DNA of 29,236 bases, from IMG/VR virus record IMGVR_UViG_3300034523_000119, positions 1-29,236 of that record; one strand, written 5' to 3'. This stretch comes from a virus. This document shows positions 8,766-29,236 of the stretch, piece after piece. The notes beneath the pieces were generated by a model. That model ran no database searches. It was not told the origin of the DNA and was given only the letters and a program-made list of their open reading frames with translations. The position numbers were made by a program, and so were the translations under genes. Within the stretch, counting starts at the first letter, position 1. Every line of letters starts with the position of its first letter.

Positions 8766-10572
8766 TGGTTCCGCTCGTGAGGTAGCGGCTCCTGCGCCGC
8801 TTGTTGGTGTTCAGAGGCTCGTTGTAGAGGGCGTGCATGATCGACCAGGCGATATCGGCGTGGCCGGTGGCCTCGGTTCTGGACGCGCTGAACGTGATCT
8901 GCCCGCCGTTGGTGGTGCCGCGCTTGATCGTCAGGAAGGCCTGGGCGATATCGGTCCAGCCGGCGTCCCACTCGATTCGGCCCGCCTGGATGACGTCCTG
9001 GGCCTTGAGTACCAGCCTGGTTTTCGTCTCGAGGCTGTAGTGGATCTGCATCACCCGTGGGTAGAAGTCCTTGACCAGGTCGTAGACGCCATAGCCGACG
9101 CCGGTTGTATCGATGCCGATGTGCTGCACGTTGAAGCGCTCGGTGATCTTCTTGACCTGGGCGGCCTGGAACGTGAACGACTGTCCACGCCAGCTGTGCT
9201 TCTCCAGGATCCTGAACTTGCCGCCTGGGTCGTCCGGCGGGGCGACCACCACACACGTAGCGTCGTCCCGGGTTCGGCTCGGGTCGTAGCCGACCCAGAC
9301 AGGGCGGTTGCCGAACGGCCGTGCATCGTCCGGGTTGAGGTCATCCCACAGCGAAAGGTCGGAGTAGGCGCGCTCCAGGTCCTTGAGGCCGAACGCACTC
9401 TGCGTGCTGTCGATGAACTTGCAGTAGAACAGCTGCTGGAAGCTGTCTTCGTCATACTCCTGTTGCAGCTGGTCGACGTCGAATAGGTCGCAGCCGCCGG
9501 CGATGGCATCGTCCAGGGTGATCGTCTTGCGCCATTGACCATCCGGGCACAGAGCGCCTTGGGTGTATGCCACCTCGCCCGGCCAGTCGTTGGCGGTCGG
9601 TTTGCCCCGCTTGCTGTTGCGGTAGGCCTCGCCGGTCCAGAACGGGTACGCCTGGTGCGATACGGCGCTGGGTGTCGAAAAGTAGGTCTTGCGCCACTTT
9701 TTGTGGGTGCCCATGGCACTGGCTACTTTGCTCAGCTTCTCGAAGTCGCGGATCCAGAAATATTCATCGACGTATACGTGGCCGTGGTAGCCCTGGGCGG
9801 TGCTGCTGTTCGTGGACAGGAAGCGCAGTTCGGCGCCGTTGCTGAGCGTGATCGGGTTGCCGGTCAGCTCGATGCCGAACCACTCCTGGGCGAACGACAC
9901 GATGTAGCTGCGGAAAATCTCCGACTGGGCGCGGCTGGCCGACAAGAACACCTGGTTGTCGCCGGTCAGCACGGCGTCCATGAAGGCCTCGCCGGCGAAG
10001 TAGTAGGTCAGCCCGACCTGCCGGCTCTTGAGGATGTTGCGGATCCTGCAGGTGAGGGGATTGAGCTTGGCGGCGAACAGATCTTTCTGGTAGCCGTACA
10101 TTTTGGAGATGAACTTGTCCAGGAAGTCCACCTCTGTCAGGCCGCTGATGTCATTCTTGGCCTTCTTCTCTTTGCGCTTGCCCCCTCGATCGCCCTTGTC
10201 GCCCTGATCTCGACGCTCACGGCGTTGCCCGCGCTGTTCGTCCAGGTCGGGATCAGCTGCAGCGTCATTCGCCGGCGCCGGCGGCCTGCTCGATTGCTTG
10301 AGCAGGCGCTCGCGCACCGTGGTCAGGCGCTCCAGTTCGTCCAGCTCGCCCTTCGTCAAAGGGTCCGTCTTATCCAGGATGAGCGTGATCCGCCGGCTCA
10401 CTGCAGTGACCGGTTCCTCATCCGTCAGCATCTCGTCCCACGACCCCTGGCGGATCCAGTAGTAAATGATCCGCACGTTGGGCAGCTTCAAATGAGCCTG
10501 GATTTCCTTCACCGATGCCCGGCGCAGGTAGAGGCGTTTGGCGGCCTCTTTGACTTCGATGGAGTAGTTCAT
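8515..10572 (-). CDS. P: Terminase, large ATPase subunit (P2 gpP family), with an unusual C-terminal extension
   Basis: The enzyme cuts concatemeric or circular phage DNA and pumps it into the procapsid. Residues 1-60 form a helix-turn-helix-like N-terminus, 95-140 is a charged linker rich in Arg, Asp, Gln and Lys, then come the ATPase and nuclease domains. KSRQVGLT at 182-189 is the ATP-binding loop, VYVDE at 266-270 the Walker B motif, and VWVGYDPSRTRDDATC starts the nuclease domain. P2 gpP is about 590 residues, so a stop would be expected near residue 600, at the portal start. Instead the frame stays open for 83 more codons over the portal gene, giving an Arg-rich, low-complexity tail from about residue 602. 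Either the ancestral stop was lost or the tail is tolerated. Confidence 0.93.
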   Translation of the reverse strand: MNYSIEVKEAAKRLYLRRASVKEIQAHLKLPNVRIIYYWIRQGSWDEMLTDEEPVTAVSRRITLILDKTDPLTKGELDELERLTTVRERLLKQSSRPPAPANDAAADPDLDEQRGQRRERRDQGDKGDRGGKRKEKKAKNDISGLTEVDFLDKFISKMYGYQKDLFAAKLNPLTCRIRNILKSRQVGLTYYFAGEAFMDAVLTGDNQVFLSASRAQSEIFRSYIVSFAQEWFGIELTGNPITLSNGAELRFLSTNSSTAQGYHGHVYVDEYFWIRDFEKLSKVASAMGTHKKWRKTYFSTPSAVSHQAYPFWTGEAYRNSKRGKPTANDWPGEVAYTQGALCPDGQWRKTITLDDAIAGGCDLFDVDQLQQEYDEDSFQQLFYCKFIDSTQSAFGLKDLERAYSDLSLWDDLNPDDARPFGNRPVWVGYDPSRTRDDATCVVVAPPDDPGGKFRILEKHSWRGQSFTFQAAQVKKITERFNVQHIGIDTTGVGYGVYDLVKDFYPRVMQIHYSLETKTRLVLKAQDVIQAGRIEWDAGWTDIAQAFLTIKRGTTNGGQITFSASRTEATGHADIAWSIMHALYNEPLNTNKRRRSRYLTSGTNAQTTQKQQGSAAGAVATAHQDVHLRRTRAGAHRQHRRVPGRVPERRRRDLQAAGVAGRPGQAVARQRAPRRNPKVQAQPDAA

Positions 10573-10601
10573 GGGCCGCAGTCTATGCGGCGATCCGCGC
10601 C

Positions 10602-10628
10602 GAAACGCCCGGAAAAACTTCGCGTTTC
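10602..10628. promoter_or_regulatory. Inverted repeat in the divergent terminase/scaffold gap: candidate late-activator site
   Basis: GAAACGC (10602-10608), 13 bases, GCGTTTC (10622-10628) is a perfect 7-bp dyad in the only gap between the two late operons. P2 Ogr binds a dyad of the form TGT-N12-ACA in the equivalent place; that motif is absent here. This repeat is the best substitute by position and geometry. Its role is inference. Confidence 0.45.
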
Positions 10629-10648
10629 TCCTAGATTTTCAAGATAGG

Positions 10649-10686
10649 AAAAGGCCGGAAGTAAAGCGGTTGGCCGGGCTTTTTTT
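10649..10686 (+). terminator. Hairpin with T-run in the divergent late-promoter gap
   Basis: AAAAGGCCGG (10649-10658) pairs with CCGGGCTTTT (10674-10683) with one mismatch; seven T residues end at 10686. It resembles an intrinsic terminator placed upstream of the scaffold gene, where it could insulate the late operon from upstream readthrough or act as an attenuator. Confidence 0.5.
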
Positions 10687-10743: not shown

Positions 10744-11667
10744 ATGCCACGCTCCCTTGTCTCATTCTGGAAACGTGTAGCTGTCAGCGGTAAGACCGCC
10801 GACGGTCGCGTTATCTCGGCCCAGGACCTGCGGGATATTGCCGAGACCTACAAACCCTCGTTTTACACCGCAGTCATCTGGTGCGATCACGAGCGTTGGC
10901 CCGGCTCTCACGGCACCGTGTACGCCGTGCGCCTCGTTGAGGAGGATGACGACCTACAGCCTGGCGAATTGGCGCTTGAGGCGCAGCTGAAACCAAATGA
11001 TCAGCTTCTCTACCTGAACGATCGTGGCCAGAAGCTGTTCAGCAGCATCGAAATCACCCCGGATTTCCGTGGTACCGGCAAGGCCTATCTGACTGGCCTC
11101 GGCGTCACTGACGAGCCCGCCAGTGTTGGTACCCAGGAGCTCTACTTTTCCAAGCGCTCCAACAAGACCTCCTACTACGCCGGATCAGTCGCCATGGGGG
11201 CGTTCGATGACAGCCAACCTCAGGGTGAAGCCAGCAAGCTCATCACCATGCTGACGAAAATTTTCAGCCGCTTCGCGTCCGGCGATACCGCCACCGAAAC
11301 CGAACCCACCACCACCGAGAGCAAACCCCCAATGGATGAAGCTACCGCAACGGCCTTGAAGGCCCTGCTGGCTCAGCTGCTCGTCGTCGCCGCCGGCATT
11401 CAGGCAGTGATCGAGCCCGCCGCCGAGGATGCACCAGAGCCTGAGCAGGCTCCGATCGATGACGTCCAGTCCGCGGTTGACGACATCGTCACTACCGCCG
11501 AGGAGCAGCGCGAGTACGCCCGCAACGGCGGCGCCGGCAACAAGGCTGTGCTGAAAGCCCTGGCGGGCCTGCAGCAGCAGTTCACCGCCCTGCAGAACAC
11601 CCCGGCCGGTCGTAACCTGCCGCGCACTTCAGCGCCGGTGCCAACCCCGAAAAAGCGGGTGTTCTGA
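10744..11667 (+). CDS. O: Capsid scaffolding protein with protease domain (P2 gpO family)
   Basis: 307 residues. The N-terminal domain is a serine protease that trims the capsid and scaffold proteins; the C-terminal helical part is the scaffold. The P2 catalytic triad (Asp, His, Ser) has counterparts here: Asp20 in TADGRVIS, His49 in WCDHERW and Ser101 in FSSIEITPDF. The VTDEPASVGTQEL motif follows, as in P2. Residues 180-205 are a Thr/Glu-rich linker. It is the first gene of the rightward late operon and divergent from the terminase. Confidence 0.95.
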   Translation: MPRSLVSFWKRVAVSGKTADGRVISAQDLRDIAETYKPSFYTAVIWCDHERWPGSHGTVYAVRLVEEDDDLQPGELALEAQLKPNDQLLYLNDRGQKLFSSIEITPDFRGTGKAYLTGLGVTDEPASVGTQELYFSKRSNKTSYYAGSVAMGAFDDSQPQGEASKLITMLTKIFSRFASGDTATETEPTTTESKPPMDEATATALKALLAQLLVVAAGIQAVIEPAAEDAPEPEQAPIDDVQSAVDDIVTTAEEQREYARNGGAGNKAVLKALAGLQQQFTALQNTPAGRNLPRTSAPVPTPKKRVF

Positions 11668-11668
11668 C

Positions 11669-12688
11669 ATGGCCCGTAACCTGAGCGCCTACGGCGCGGA
11701 AATGTTCGCCAATCTGCAGTTGGCCATGGCCGAGAGCTATGGCGTTAACCTGGTCAGCACGCAGTTCAGTGTAGAGCCGTCGATCACCCAGGAGCTGAAT
11801 GACGCGATCACCGCGAAGTCGGACTTCCTGGAGCGGATCAACGTCGTTCCGGTGACCGAGATCAAGGGCGAAAAGGTCTTCATCGGTACCAATGGCCCGG
11901 TGACTGGCCGCACCAACACCAAGACCACCGATCGTGAGGCCAAGGATGCCTCCGGTTTGGACAACAACCAGTACGAGCTGCACGACACTCAGTCCGATGT
12001 GGGCCTGCCGTACGCCAAGATCGATGCCTGGGCCAAGTTCCCGGACTTCCATCAGCGCTACTCTGCCGCCGTACAAAAGCAGATCGCCCTGGACCGCATC
12101 ATGATCGGCTTCCACGGTACCCACGTGGCCATCGATACCGATATCACCCAGTACCCGCTGCTCCAGGACGTGAACATCGGCTGGCTGCAGATCTTGCGCA
12201 CCCAGGCGCCGCACCAGGTGGTGGCCCAAGGCAAGGTGGCCGGCAAGATCGTCATTGGCGCCGATGGCGACTACGCGAACCTCGACGCCGCAGTGCATGA
12301 CGCCAAGCAGTTGGTGGATGAGCGTCTGCGGGAGAACGGCGACCTGGTGGCCATCATCGGTTCCGACCTGCTGGCAGCTGACAAGGCGAAGCTGTACAGC
12401 AAGCAGGCTGATACCCCGACCGAGAAAGAGCGCATCGAGTTGGCCCAGGTGATCGCCACCTATGGCGGCTTGGCGGCTTACAGCGTGCCGAACTTCCCTG
12501 TGGACGCGATCCTGGTCACCAGCTTCGACAACCTGTCGATCTACTACCAGGACACCAGCTGGCGTAAGCAGACCGTCGACAATCCGAAGCGCTCCCGTGT
12601 CGAGGACTACAACAGCCGCAACGAGGGCTATGTGGTCGAGCAGCTGGAGAAGGCCGGCCTGATGGAGAACATCGAGGTGGCCAAGTGA
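11669..12688 (+). CDS. N: Major capsid protein (P2 gpN family)
   Basis: 339 residues with the HK97-like fold expected of P2 gpN (P2 is 357 residues). Recognisable segments are the N-terminal scaffold-cleaved region MARNLSAYGAEMFANLQLAMAE, then FLERINVVPVTEIKGEKVFIG, KFPDFHQRYSAAVQKQIALDRIMIGFHG and YYQDTSWRKQTVDNPKRSRVEDYNSRNEGYVVE near the end, which is strongly conserved in the family. It begins one base after the scaffold stop codon. Confidence 0.96.
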   Translation: MARNLSAYGAEMFANLQLAMAESYGVNLVSTQFSVEPSITQELNDAITAKSDFLERINVVPVTEIKGEKVFIGTNGPVTGRTNTKTTDREAKDASGLDNNQYELHDTQSDVGLPYAKIDAWAKFPDFHQRYSAAVQKQIALDRIMIGFHGTHVAIDTDITQYPLLQDVNIGWLQILRTQAPHQVVAQGKVAGKIVIGADGDYANLDAAVHDAKQLVDERLRENGDLVAIIGSDLLAADKAKLYSKQADTPTEKERIELAQVIATYGGLAAYSVPNFPVDAILVTSFDNLSIYYQDTSWRKQTVDNPKRSRVEDYNSRNEGYVVEQLEKAGLMENIEVAK

Positions 12689-26305: not shown

Positions 26306-27012
26306 GCATGAAGCTCCACAAGGTGCTGAGTGTTGGCGGGGCTGTTCTGCCGCTGATCCAGGACGAGGTTCGTCTGCAGCTCAAACACCCTGGGCGGGCT
26401 TCGTTCACGGTCCAGGCCGGCAACCCGGTCAAGGGTCTGGTAACGCTGGACATTGGCTACAACGAACGCCAGCTGCAGCGCCACTTTATCGGCTACGTTG
26501 AGCGCAGCACCGTAGTAAACGGCCAGCAGCAGATCCTGTTCTGTCGCGAGCTGGCCACCGTGCTCGAGGCGCCGCTGCCGCTCAACCTGCGACACGTCAG
26601 CCTGCAGGCCGTGCTCGAGGAGGTCAGCCAGAAGACCGGGCTGCGCTTCCGTGTACCTGCCCAGACCTACGCCCAGGTGAAGGCACCGTACTTCTACAGC
26701 TTGGGTGGCGGCTACCAGGCCATGGACAACCTGGCCAAGGTGTTCAGCGTGCCGGACTTCATCTGGCAGCAGCAGGGCGACGGCGAGGTGTTCGTGGGCA
26801 GCTGGGCAGATAGCTTCTTTGGCGCCCGATCGCCACTGCAGCTGCCGATCGAGCTGTTCGACGGCTACCAGGGCAACCAGAGCGCCACGATCTCAGCCCT
26901 TCCCGGACTGCGACCAGGCGTATCGATCAACCAGGGCGAGCGGATCACGAATGTGACGCTGGCCGGCAACCAGATGGCCATCCGATGGACAACGCAATCA
27001 AGCGCAGCGTAG
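26302..27012 (+). CDS. Baseplate hub protein (gpD-like)
   Basis: 236 residues. The layout of early strands (EVRLQLKHPGRASFTVQAGNPVKGLVTLDIGY), the IGYVERS turn, LRHVSLQAVLEEVSQKTGLRFRVPAQ, and FYSLGGGYQAMDNLAKVFSVPDFIWQQQGDGEVFVG fits the hub (gpD/gp27) fold, which makes the trimeric base of the tail tube. It is shorter than P2 gpD, as in HP1-type phages. Its 3' end overlaps the spike gene by 28 bases. Confidence 0.75.
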   Translation: MSMKLHKVLSVGGAVLPLIQDEVRLQLKHPGRASFTVQAGNPVKGLVTLDIGYNERQLQRHFIGYVERSTVVNGQQQILFCRELATVLEAPLPLNLRHVSLQAVLEEVSQKTGLRFRVPAQTYAQVKAPYFYSLGGGYQAMDNLAKVFSVPDFIWQQQGDGEVFVGSWADSFFGARSPLQLPIELFDGYQGNQSATISALPGLRPGVSINQGERITNVTLAGNQMAIRWTTQSSAA

Positions 27013-27956
27013 AGCGCCAATTCCCCGAACTCAGCGGCGGTTACCACCTGCCGCGCTTTGGCCGCGTCGTGGCGGTACCGGATGCGCCGACGACGTCTGG
27101 GTTGTGCGACGACTTCCGGCCGCGCTTCGCCGTCGACGTGGAGATCCTGCTGCCGGATGGCGAACCCGACCCAGACCTGCCGGTGCTGACCGGGCTGCCG
27201 CTGCCGGCGCCGATGGGCGGGCAAGAGGCCGGTATGTTCGGCTTTCCCGAAGAGGGCACTACTGTGGTGGTGGGCTTCGCCTACGGTCTGCCGCACAAGC
27301 CCTTCATCCAGCAGATCCTGGCCCACGGGCTGAGCCTGCCCCGGGTACCGAAGGGCGACCAGGTGTGGCAGCACAGCGAGGCCTGTCAGCAGCGCGTGGA
27401 CGCGGACGGCAACTGGCTGCGCCAGACGGACGGGAAGATCCAGGACAAGGCGATCGAGCGCGAGGTGGAAGCGCTGGACAACCGCGAGCAGTACCAGAGC
27501 CACACCAGGACGGTGGATGATCATTCCACCGAGTCGGTGGGGGGTACCAAGACGCTCGAGGCGCTGGGCGCCCTCAAGCTGCTCTCAGGCGGGGCGGCGA
27601 GCCTGGCAGCGGTGGATGACCTGAATCAGGCCACTGGCCGCGATCTGAACCTGGTAGTCGGCCAGAAGCTCAACGCCACGATCGGCGGCGACGTCCAAGA
27701 GCGGATCGAGGGCCTGCGCCGGAGCGTGGCGGGGAAAGGCCAGCGCCTGCAGGCGCCGAAGACGTGGCTTGGGTCGGATGGGGTGAACGTGCTCCAGGTG
27801 GTGTGTGATCTGCTCGACCTGGTGCAAGCAATGAACCTTCAGCTGGCAGGGCACACGCATGGGCCCACGCCAGCGCCGAGCAACGCGACGGCATTCTCTC
27901 AGGCAGCAGCTTCGTCCCTTCTGCTAACGAACCGACTCAAGCCAATCACCCTATAG
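26985..27956 (+). CDS. V: Baseplate spike protein (gpV/gp5-like)
   Basis: 323 residues. The N-terminal OB-like domain (LPRFGRVVAVPDAPTTSGLCDDFRPRFAVDVEILLPDG and EAGMFGFPEEGTTVVVGFAYGLPHKPFI) sits on the hub, and the middle is a beta-helical stretch with the TVDDHSTESVGGTKTLEALGALKLLSGG pattern. Near the C-terminus is LAGHTHGPTPAP, an H-x-H metal-binding motif of membrane-piercing spikes such as P2 gpV. In this phage the hub and spike genes follow the tail fibre, the reverse of P2 order. Confidence 0.87.
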   Translation: MDNAIKRSVERQFPELSGGYHLPRFGRVVAVPDAPTTSGLCDDFRPRFAVDVEILLPDGEPDPDLPVLTGLPLPAPMGGQEAGMFGFPEEGTTVVVGFAYGLPHKPFIQQILAHGLSLPRVPKGDQVWQHSEACQQRVDADGNWLRQTDGKIQDKAIEREVEALDNREQYQSHTRTVDDHSTESVGGTKTLEALGALKLLSGGAASLAAVDDLNQATGRDLNLVVGQKLNATIGGDVQERIEGLRRSVAGKGQRLQAPKTWLGSDGVNVLQVVCDLLDLVQAMNLQLAGHTHGPTPAPSNATAFSQAAASSLLLTNRLKPITL

Positions 27957-28005
27957 CCAATACTCAATAGTGGCGGCATGATGGCAAAAACTAAGAGGCC
28001 ATCTT

Positions 28006-29151
28006 ATGATCTGCACGGAATGCGTAATCCCGATACCGCTCAAAAAACTCATAGCTGGGCAAGGTGGCTTTGGCGACTGTCAATATTGTCAAAAGCCTGG
28101 GATGTGCCTTCAAGATGAAACTGTTCTTGAGTACATAAAAGAGCGAATTTTAGAGTCTTTCCGTACGCTCGAGGAACTCAGCCACATCGAGCAGCACATA
28201 TTTTTTCATGGATCAGACAAGATAACTCCGAGCGAGTTCTGGGCGATAGTGCAAGATGACTACACCGTTGGCACGGACGCATTCGTAGAGCGCGCCATAA
28301 ATTACCTCGAAGAAGATCTAGCGTTAGATGAGCACGGTGAGACCCAGATCTGGGCACTTGATGATGGAACATTAGCGCGAAATGTTTATGAGGAACGATG
28401 GCAAAAATTCGTCCTAGACACTCACCACGGCTATCGCTTTTTCAATTTTGCCGCGAAAGAATTTCTCGATTCATTGTTCGACTTTGCCTGCCACGACAAG
28501 AAATTGAGACCTGAACTGCTCACGACATTAAAGGACGATCAGCTATTGTTTAGGGCGCGAAAAGTCTCGGAACGTAGAAAATGCGATGAGTTTGACAAGT
28601 TTCCAGAAACTGCCTTAGGTCCAGCCCCGGCGGCAAAAGCTGGCGATCAGCGAATGACCCCGTCTGGTATCTCGGCAATGTATTGCGCGTTTGATCGGGA
28701 AACATGCCTGAGTGAAATTCGCGCAATCACAGGCGATCTTGTAGTCAGTGGTGCTTTCACGCCAGTAACTCAACTTAAGTTTCTTGATCTTCGCATGCTT
28801 CAAGAAATGTCGAAAATTTCAGCGCACCCGTTTGATAAAGGATACGTAGAGACCTGTCACGCTCATCGATTCTTATGTCTGCTCATCAACAAATTGTCGA
28901 AGCCTAAAAGCAGTTCCGACACCCTGGGATATATATCCACACAGGTGGTATTTGAATACCTGCGACTGAGATTTAAAGGCCAAGTATCTGGCCTGATCTT
29001 CCCTTCAGTGCAAACTGGCTTAGTTGGTACTAACGCTGTTTTGTTTCCTGAGAGCGCTGTAATTGCCCCCAAAGGGTACAAAATTGAGAATGAGGACCCG
29101 CTGGGACATCAATGTCATCAACTTTGGAAATTATCCATAAATATCATATAA
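28006..29151 (+). CDS. RES-domain protein (predicted NAD+-degrading effector) with N-terminal cysteine cluster: prophage cargo
   Basis: 381 residues. The C-terminal half (about 180-350) has the RES-fold signature: R183 in LLFRAR, then RMTPSGISAMYCAFDRETCLSEIR with Tyr226 and Glu237, and later GLIFPSVQTGLVGTNAVLF with Ser334. These are the Arg-Glu-Ser residues that name the family, whose toxins degrade NAD+ by phosphorolysis (for example MbcT). The N-terminus carries C3-x2-C6 and C25-x2-C28-x5-C34, a probable zinc site, and residues 35-170 are helical, as in RES proteins with a HEPN-like N-terminal region. AAGAGG is well placed before ATG 28006. The gene is clearly AT-richer than the rest, shows no antitoxin neighbour, and lies between the last virion gene and the expected attR, a classic cargo site. 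Role in anti-phage defence is inference. Confidence 0.75.
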   Translation: MICTECVIPIPLKKLIAGQGGFGDCQYCQKPGMCLQDETVLEYIKERILESFRTLEELSHIEQHIFFHGSDKITPSEFWAIVQDDYTVGTDAFVERAINYLEEDLALDEHGETQIWALDDGTLARNVYEERWQKFVLDTHHGYRFFNFAAKEFLDSLFDFACHDKKLRPELLTTLKDDQLLFRARKVSERRKCDEFDKFPETALGPAPAAKAGDQRMTPSGISAMYCAFDRETCLSEIRAITGDLVVSGAFTPVTQLKFLDLRMLQEMSKISAHPFDKGYVETCHAHRFLCLLINKLSKPKSSSDTLGYISTQVVFEYLRLRFKGQVSGLIFPSVQTGLVGTNAVLFPESAVIAPKGYKIENEDPLGHQCHQLWKLSINII

Positions 29152-29185
29152 TTAGCGCTCAAATCAGTGCATGGGAGAAGCCCTT

Positions 29186-29236
29186 TTGACTACCTATACC
29201 GCATCGCTTGACACCGCCAGCCAAACCCTGGCTTGA
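29186..29236 (+). CDS. Possible short ORF at the right edge (TTG start), very uncertain
   Basis: A GGGAGAA ribosome-binding-like sequence (29172-29178) precedes TTG 29186, and the frame reads 16 residues to a TGA that ends the window; an ATG at 29171 would give 21 residues. No family recognised. It may be a chance ORF near the prophage end. Confidence 0.15.
   Translation: MTTYTASLDTASQTLA

Follow-up and report, generated by a model that had tools for sequence, protein, structure and literature searches.

A zinc-ribbon/HEPN-like/RES protein gene in a prophage cargo slot is a candidate single-gene NAD+-consuming superinfection-exclusion effector

The IMG/VR record IMGVR_UViG_3300034523_000119 (29,236 bp; referred to below as the window, meaning the whole stretch of DNA that was analyzed) is a prophage related to the Pseudomonas phages UFJF_PfPro and phi3 (Peduoviridae). 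A serine recombinase, whose gene (positions 175–1824, + strand) matches phage serine recombinase genes, inserted this prophage into rimO. At the left junction (1–168, − strand), reverse-strand reading and comparison with rimO place host rimO at positions 1–131, joined to a phage-supplied rimO start with its ATG at position 168. The insertion site is the 5'-terminal part of rimO, where phage-encoded first codons are fused to the host gene. The prophage seems to give rimO a new start in this manner, and integration would leave rimO functional.

At the other end of the window, a complete open reading frame (28006–29151, + strand; all gene calls are longest-ORF calls) starts with ATG and encodes a 381-aa protein with a zinc ribbon, a HEPN_RES_NTD1-like region, and a RES domain. 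A Shine-Dalgarno-like AAGAGG (27993–27998, + strand), read by eye, precedes the ATG by 7 bp. The gene lies directly 3' of a baseplate/spike gene (26985–27956, + strand), which has 75% identity to UFJF_PfPro, 67% to the phi3 baseplate protein, and 420 relatives in IMG/VR. This baseplate gene forms the left border of an AT-rich cargo slot that occupies positions 27957–29236, as far as the contig extends, and has a GC content of 0.46 compared with 0.66 in the sequence preceding it. The RES gene itself has GC and GC3 values of 0.46, whereas those of adjacent phage genes are 0.63–0.70 and 0.80–0.83, respectively. A preliminary description of this DNA, prepared from the sequence alone, had reported an AT-rich gene in a GC-rich phage, and the composition agrees. 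It had also placed the gene in a moron position between spike and attR. The position directly after the spike gene is correct, but attR is absent from the window: the last 1.3 kb and the rimO region of three Pseudomonas genomes have zero 12-mers in common, and the contig therefore ends inside the prophage.

The N-terminus of the protein carries four zinc-ribbon cysteines (C3xxC6 and C25xxC28; 28012–28089, + strand) that are conserved in 98–99% of 143 aligned sequences. The preliminary description had given a helical N-terminus with a zinc-like cluster of five cysteines; the zinc-type cluster and the helices hold, but the fifth residue, C34, was rejected as a zinc ligand (cysteine in 42 of 143 sequences, 29%). 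The helical region (residues 21–151; 28066–28458, + strand) matches HEPN_RES_NTD1 (PF18870) at 18.8 bits and E = 0.002, which is under the cut-off of 27.4. The same model matches 55 of 63 full-length relatives at E < 1e-3, and these relatives align over the whole N-terminal region. The RES domain (residues 181–351; 28546–29058, + strand) is matched by PF08808 over residues 202–351 with E = 1.1e-11 and a score of 45.4 bits, compared with a Pfam cut-off of 23.2, and PF08808 matches 63 of 63 relatives.

Although most of the 143 aligned relatives are only about 25% identical to the window protein, R183, R216, E237, Y309, Q313, and N343 are invariant among them, and Y226 and S334 are each conserved in 142 sequences (99%). 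The published active site of NatT consists of R23, R82, Y93, S184, and N193, and R82A inactivates the enzyme (NatT paper). By order and spacing, with no superposition, these residues correspond to R183 (codon at 28552–28554), R216 (28651–28653), Y226 (28681–28683), S334 (29005–29007), and N343 (29032–29034), respectively, all on the + strand. The R-to-Y spacing is 10 in the window protein and 11 in NatT, and the S-to-N spacing is 9 in both. In addition, E237 (28714–28716, + strand) corresponds to the glutamate of the R-E-S triad of RES proteins (PMC12457610). An AlphaFold2 model built from a 63-sequence alignment (pLDDT 75.7, mostly 80–93 in the RES core) contains the N-terminal ribbon, the helices, and the RES core. 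In a Foldseek comparison with this model, the first five PDB ranks were all RES toxins, namely VPA0770, NatT (two entries), RES-Pp, and ParT, with probabilities of 0.23–0.94 and weak E-values of 0.03–1.3 (best 0.03, with VPA0770 as the top match). PDB sequence searches with the single sequence or a profile returned nothing meaningful. These results uphold the RES fold with R183, E237, and S334 that motif reading had proposed, and the comparison with RES toxin structures that had been suggested as a check gave the same answer.

No other protein in its clade is as short as the window protein, which lacks mainly linker and the last residues at its C-terminus. A damaging C-terminal truncation was considered and judged unlikely, because the tail HQCHQLWKLSINII is alignable by eye to the VHxI strand that its relatives have. 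Taken together, catalysis is strongly predicted from the conserved residues and the structural model. By homology, the reaction would be NAD(P)+ consumption, probably by phosphorolysis as in NatT.

Anantharaman et al. (2013; PMC3710099) reported proteins that combine HEPN/RES-NTD1 with RES, in some cases with a zinc ribbon at the N-terminus, and predicted RNase activity; subsequent studies of RES toxins instead indicate NAD+ chemistry. Plasmid records with RefSeq-type names label such genes as "RES family NAD+ phosphorylase" and "HEPN-associated N-terminal domain-containing protein." The window protein is therefore an added member of a known, uncharacterized family, and the gene is less novel than the preliminary description implied; the new part of this work is the setting, namely the slot and the locations of the family. 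A literature search, in which subscription papers and preprints were scarcely covered, found no phage-restriction test of the zinc-ribbon/NTD1/RES family and no paper on RES in defense.

Family-wide scans with one alignment (A3) found relatives in 302 of 400 candidate stretches of GTDB contigs (several phyla among the 80 retained) and in 17 IMG/VR contigs. Matches also occur in 287 of 72,556 plasmids (looser matches included) and in 61 of 400 sampled Pseudomonas genomes, where the weakest matches span part of the protein only. In E. coli, one subtype is found in 42 of 5,426 genomes and is always plasmid-borne. No close relatives were found by tblastn in 50,697 phage records, and no relatives were found in a related-locus search with the window protein alone or in viral contigs searched with a clade-specific alignment or the A. 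johnsonii protein. In the phylogeny, six Pseudomonas copies and the window gene form a small, supported clade, which the A. johnsonii copy joins more loosely on a long branch. The window copy represents a divergent Pseudomonas clade, with 45–47% identity to its closest relatives. The copy on the P. putida plasmid p716811-VIM has an in-frame stop (locus L003, 8721–8723) at the position equivalent to R239 of the window protein and is annotated as two genes; because of this interruption it was excluded from the main alignment. Between this locus (L003, 7974–9290) and another (L150, 9154–10551), the flanking genes are 96–100% identical, whereas the RES proteins between them are only 77–79% identical. 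This pattern looks like an exchange of the RES allele within a mobile segment that is otherwise nearly the same. Genes for TniB and a Mu-type transposase lie near this segment.

Known RES toxins act with Xre antitoxins, and the preliminary description had stated that none is adjacent here. Within the window, no antitoxin-like gene is present upstream of the RES gene. On the other side, the contig stops 85 bp beyond the stop codon, and the absence is therefore established upstream only. The neighborhoods of relatives extend the comparison. Among 150 family loci, the six closest relatives included, no partner gene recurs: the largest homologous cluster of immediate neighbors has six members, mostly from Rhodobacterales-type genomes. 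This lack of a recurrent neighbor implies that the family has no general cognate antitoxin. About four members do adjoin an Xre/MbcA/ParS-like gene, of which two are confirmed by Pfam (L155, 10915–11376, − strand; L171, 10829–11191, + strand) and two are identified by similarity (L164, 10746–11201, + strand; L166, 2823–3257, − strand). The gene in L155 lies 284 bp upstream on the same strand, and the gene in L171 and its homologs in L164 and L166 are divergent. It is possible that these neighbors are acquired or ancestral antitoxins in one subclade. The window protein might be the toxin of a RES toxin-antitoxin pair that serves prophage stabilization or stress dormancy, with its antitoxin encoded past the end of the contig or at another place in the genome. 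The four Xre-adjoining members, the early end of the contig, and a HicAB pair in the same slot of two related phages (see below) are consistent with this explanation. However, the neighborhoods of the 150 loci argue against it, many family members stand alone between unrelated genes, and canonical RES toxins are short and lack the zinc-ribbon/helical N-terminus. A toxin-antitoxin pair is considered unlikely.

The slot was characterized from 80 related phage ends that were fetched via the baseplate gene (L211–L290), of which 70 had enough downstream sequence and were used. These 70 slots are the best-matching loci, not a random sample, and they include a few near-duplicates. The median GC content drops from 0.62 to 0.44 at the slot start, with a fall of more than 0.10 in 51 of 62 loci. 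In 47 of the 70 loci, the slot contains AT-rich genes of at least 150 aa, 71 genes in 50 families. Their products include Septu PtuA/PtuB, PD-T4-2_A, PDC-S31, NsnA, GmrSD, HEPN, DUF4238, DndB-like, and AAA/AbiEii-like proteins, as well as acyltransferase- and glycosyltransferase-like proteins of the O-antigen-modifying kind. Among the named phages, UFJF_PfPro has a glycosyltransferase at this site, and phi3 and BIBS67 have a HicAB pair. One recurring gene of about 98 aa marks the far end of the slot in 27 loci, 0.7–2.8 kb farther on. Judging from these predicted products, the region 3' of the baseplate gene is a hypervariable cargo site rich in means to exclude other phages. With 50 families in 47 prophages, it offers a compact set of candidate defense genes from HP1/phi3-like phages of Pseudomonas. 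None of the 70 surveyed slots has a RES gene, suggesting that the occupant found in the window is rare in this phage type.

Other mobile elements carry relatives at comparable sites. In one prophage locus (L100, with near copies in L099 and L112), the RES relative lies between gpA, which encodes the nicking protein, and the portal gene; in another (L110), it lies between gpA and the terminase gene. Both positions match the P2 gpA-gpQ interval, an anti-phage defense hotspot validated by Rousset (2022; PMC9122126). In a Mu-like prophage (L172), the relative is a reverse insertion between the neck and head-protease genes, and matching arrangements beside the protease are found in L163 and L169. 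The latter locus has two divergent family members in tandem (9354–10658 and 10990–12225) near the head genes of a Mu-like prophage. Furthermore, among plasmid-borne relatives, the one in A. johnsonii adjoins BREX and another adjoins PifC and a 741-aa gene annotated as "FxsA" in the PifA position, and further relatives lie near AbiEii, HEPN nuclease, and DUF4238 genes. A survey for homologs in prophage cargo sites and defense islands, as had been proposed from the sequence, found them at prophage and plasmid defense sites. When 20 chromosomal Pseudomonas copies were compared with 20 controls by using PADLOC, 188 and 39 redundant model names, respectively, were found nearby; enrichment was non-significant for every single family (best family 6/140 vs. 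1/137, p = 0.12), and the comparison is suggestive of a defense context. The window protein itself matches none of the PADLOC models, which include no model for this family.

On balance, the window gene is probably a single-gene, NAD+-consuming superinfection-exclusion effector, a reading held with moderate confidence in which the defense role comes from genomic context and the NAD+ chemistry from homology. The defense role is favored mainly because unrelated mobile elements have repeatedly captured the family at defense sites. In the proposed mechanism, the zinc ribbon and the HEPN/RES-NTD1 region would provide restraint in place of a separate antitoxin. The N-terminal region may also bear the trigger, such that an infection signal would release the RES domain; that the N-terminus acts as a sensor, and what the trigger is, are inference only. 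The resulting loss of NAD+ would halt growth or kill the cell, and the competing phage would be excluded by abortive infection. Several observations weigh against this reading. Some slot occupants, such as the acyl- and glycosyltransferases and HicAB, are not defense genes in the strict sense, and natT had no effect on more than 50 phages (NatT paper). The weak Foldseek E-values, the Xre/MbcA/ParS-like genes beside four family members, and the lack of single-family significance in the PADLOC comparison count against it too. Extended to the entire family, the proposal is a widespread form of single-protein immunity in which one polypeptide combines a zinc-ribbon/helical sensor with a RES NAD+ phosphorylase and needs no antitoxin. 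This broader version is more tentative, with perhaps a little less than an even chance of being correct.

Alternatively, the protein may be a defense effector that does not empty the NAD+ pool but uses its RES domain to ADP-ribosylate one particular macromolecule of the host or of a phage, in the way that ParT modifies Prs. RES chemistries do differ: phosphorolysis is the activity of NatT and MbcT, ADP-ribosyltransferase activity is reported or predicted for ParT and VPA0770, and VPA0770 is the best PDB match of the model. The full conservation of the NatT set (R/R/Y/S/N) counts against this alternative, although sequence cannot separate the two chemistries, and a specific macromolecular target is regarded as improbable to the same degree as a toxin-antitoxin pair. 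Least likely of all, the gene could be a passenger that does nothing to exclude phages (a decaying copy, or a gene for stress or host fitness), for which the broken P. putida relative, the short C-terminus, and the single copy of the subclade in this phage type, with no RES gene in the surveyed slots, may be cited, but which fits poorly with the intact reading frame, the complete set of active-site residues, the alignable C-terminal stretch, and the fact that plasmids and different types of prophage have picked up family members repeatedly.

If exclusion of other phages by NAD+ loss is indeed the function, the family would represent the first phage-exclusion system built on RES and would add a class of NAD+-destroying effectors to TIR and SIR2, with conjugative plasmids and at least three types of prophage as its carriers. 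The biological role of RES toxins, which are widespread, is a matter of debate; in this family, the RES domain is fused to its own candidate control domain and occurs at prophage and plasmid defense sites.

Compared with the other zinc-ribbon/HEPN-RES-NTD1/RES proteins (PMC3710099; PF18870 and PF08808), the window protein appears to have the same three modules in identical order, with a below-cut-off match for HEPN_RES_NTD1, but it is shorter at the C-terminus and belongs to a divergent clade. The RES fold and the five matched NatT active-site residues connect it to NatT, MbcT, RES-Pp, and ParT. However, those toxins are short and each has an Xre antitoxin as its partner, whereas this family has an added zinc-ribbon/helical N-terminus and usually no partner gene. 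The P2-like hotspots (old/tin, DUF4238, and PARIS; PMC9122126) are likewise small hypervariable slots between conserved phage genes, but the post-baseplate slot, which HP1/phi3-like phages of Pseudomonas have at their right end, differs from the sites named in the accessible text of Rousset (2022). According to the NatT paper, known NAD-targeting immunity consists of TIR and SIR2 only, and no RES toxin-antitoxin system has been implicated in immunity. In the abortive-infection systems based on TIR and SIR2, NAD+ loss excludes the phage; the same outcome is proposed for the window protein, through a RES fold that is unrelated to their catalytic folds.
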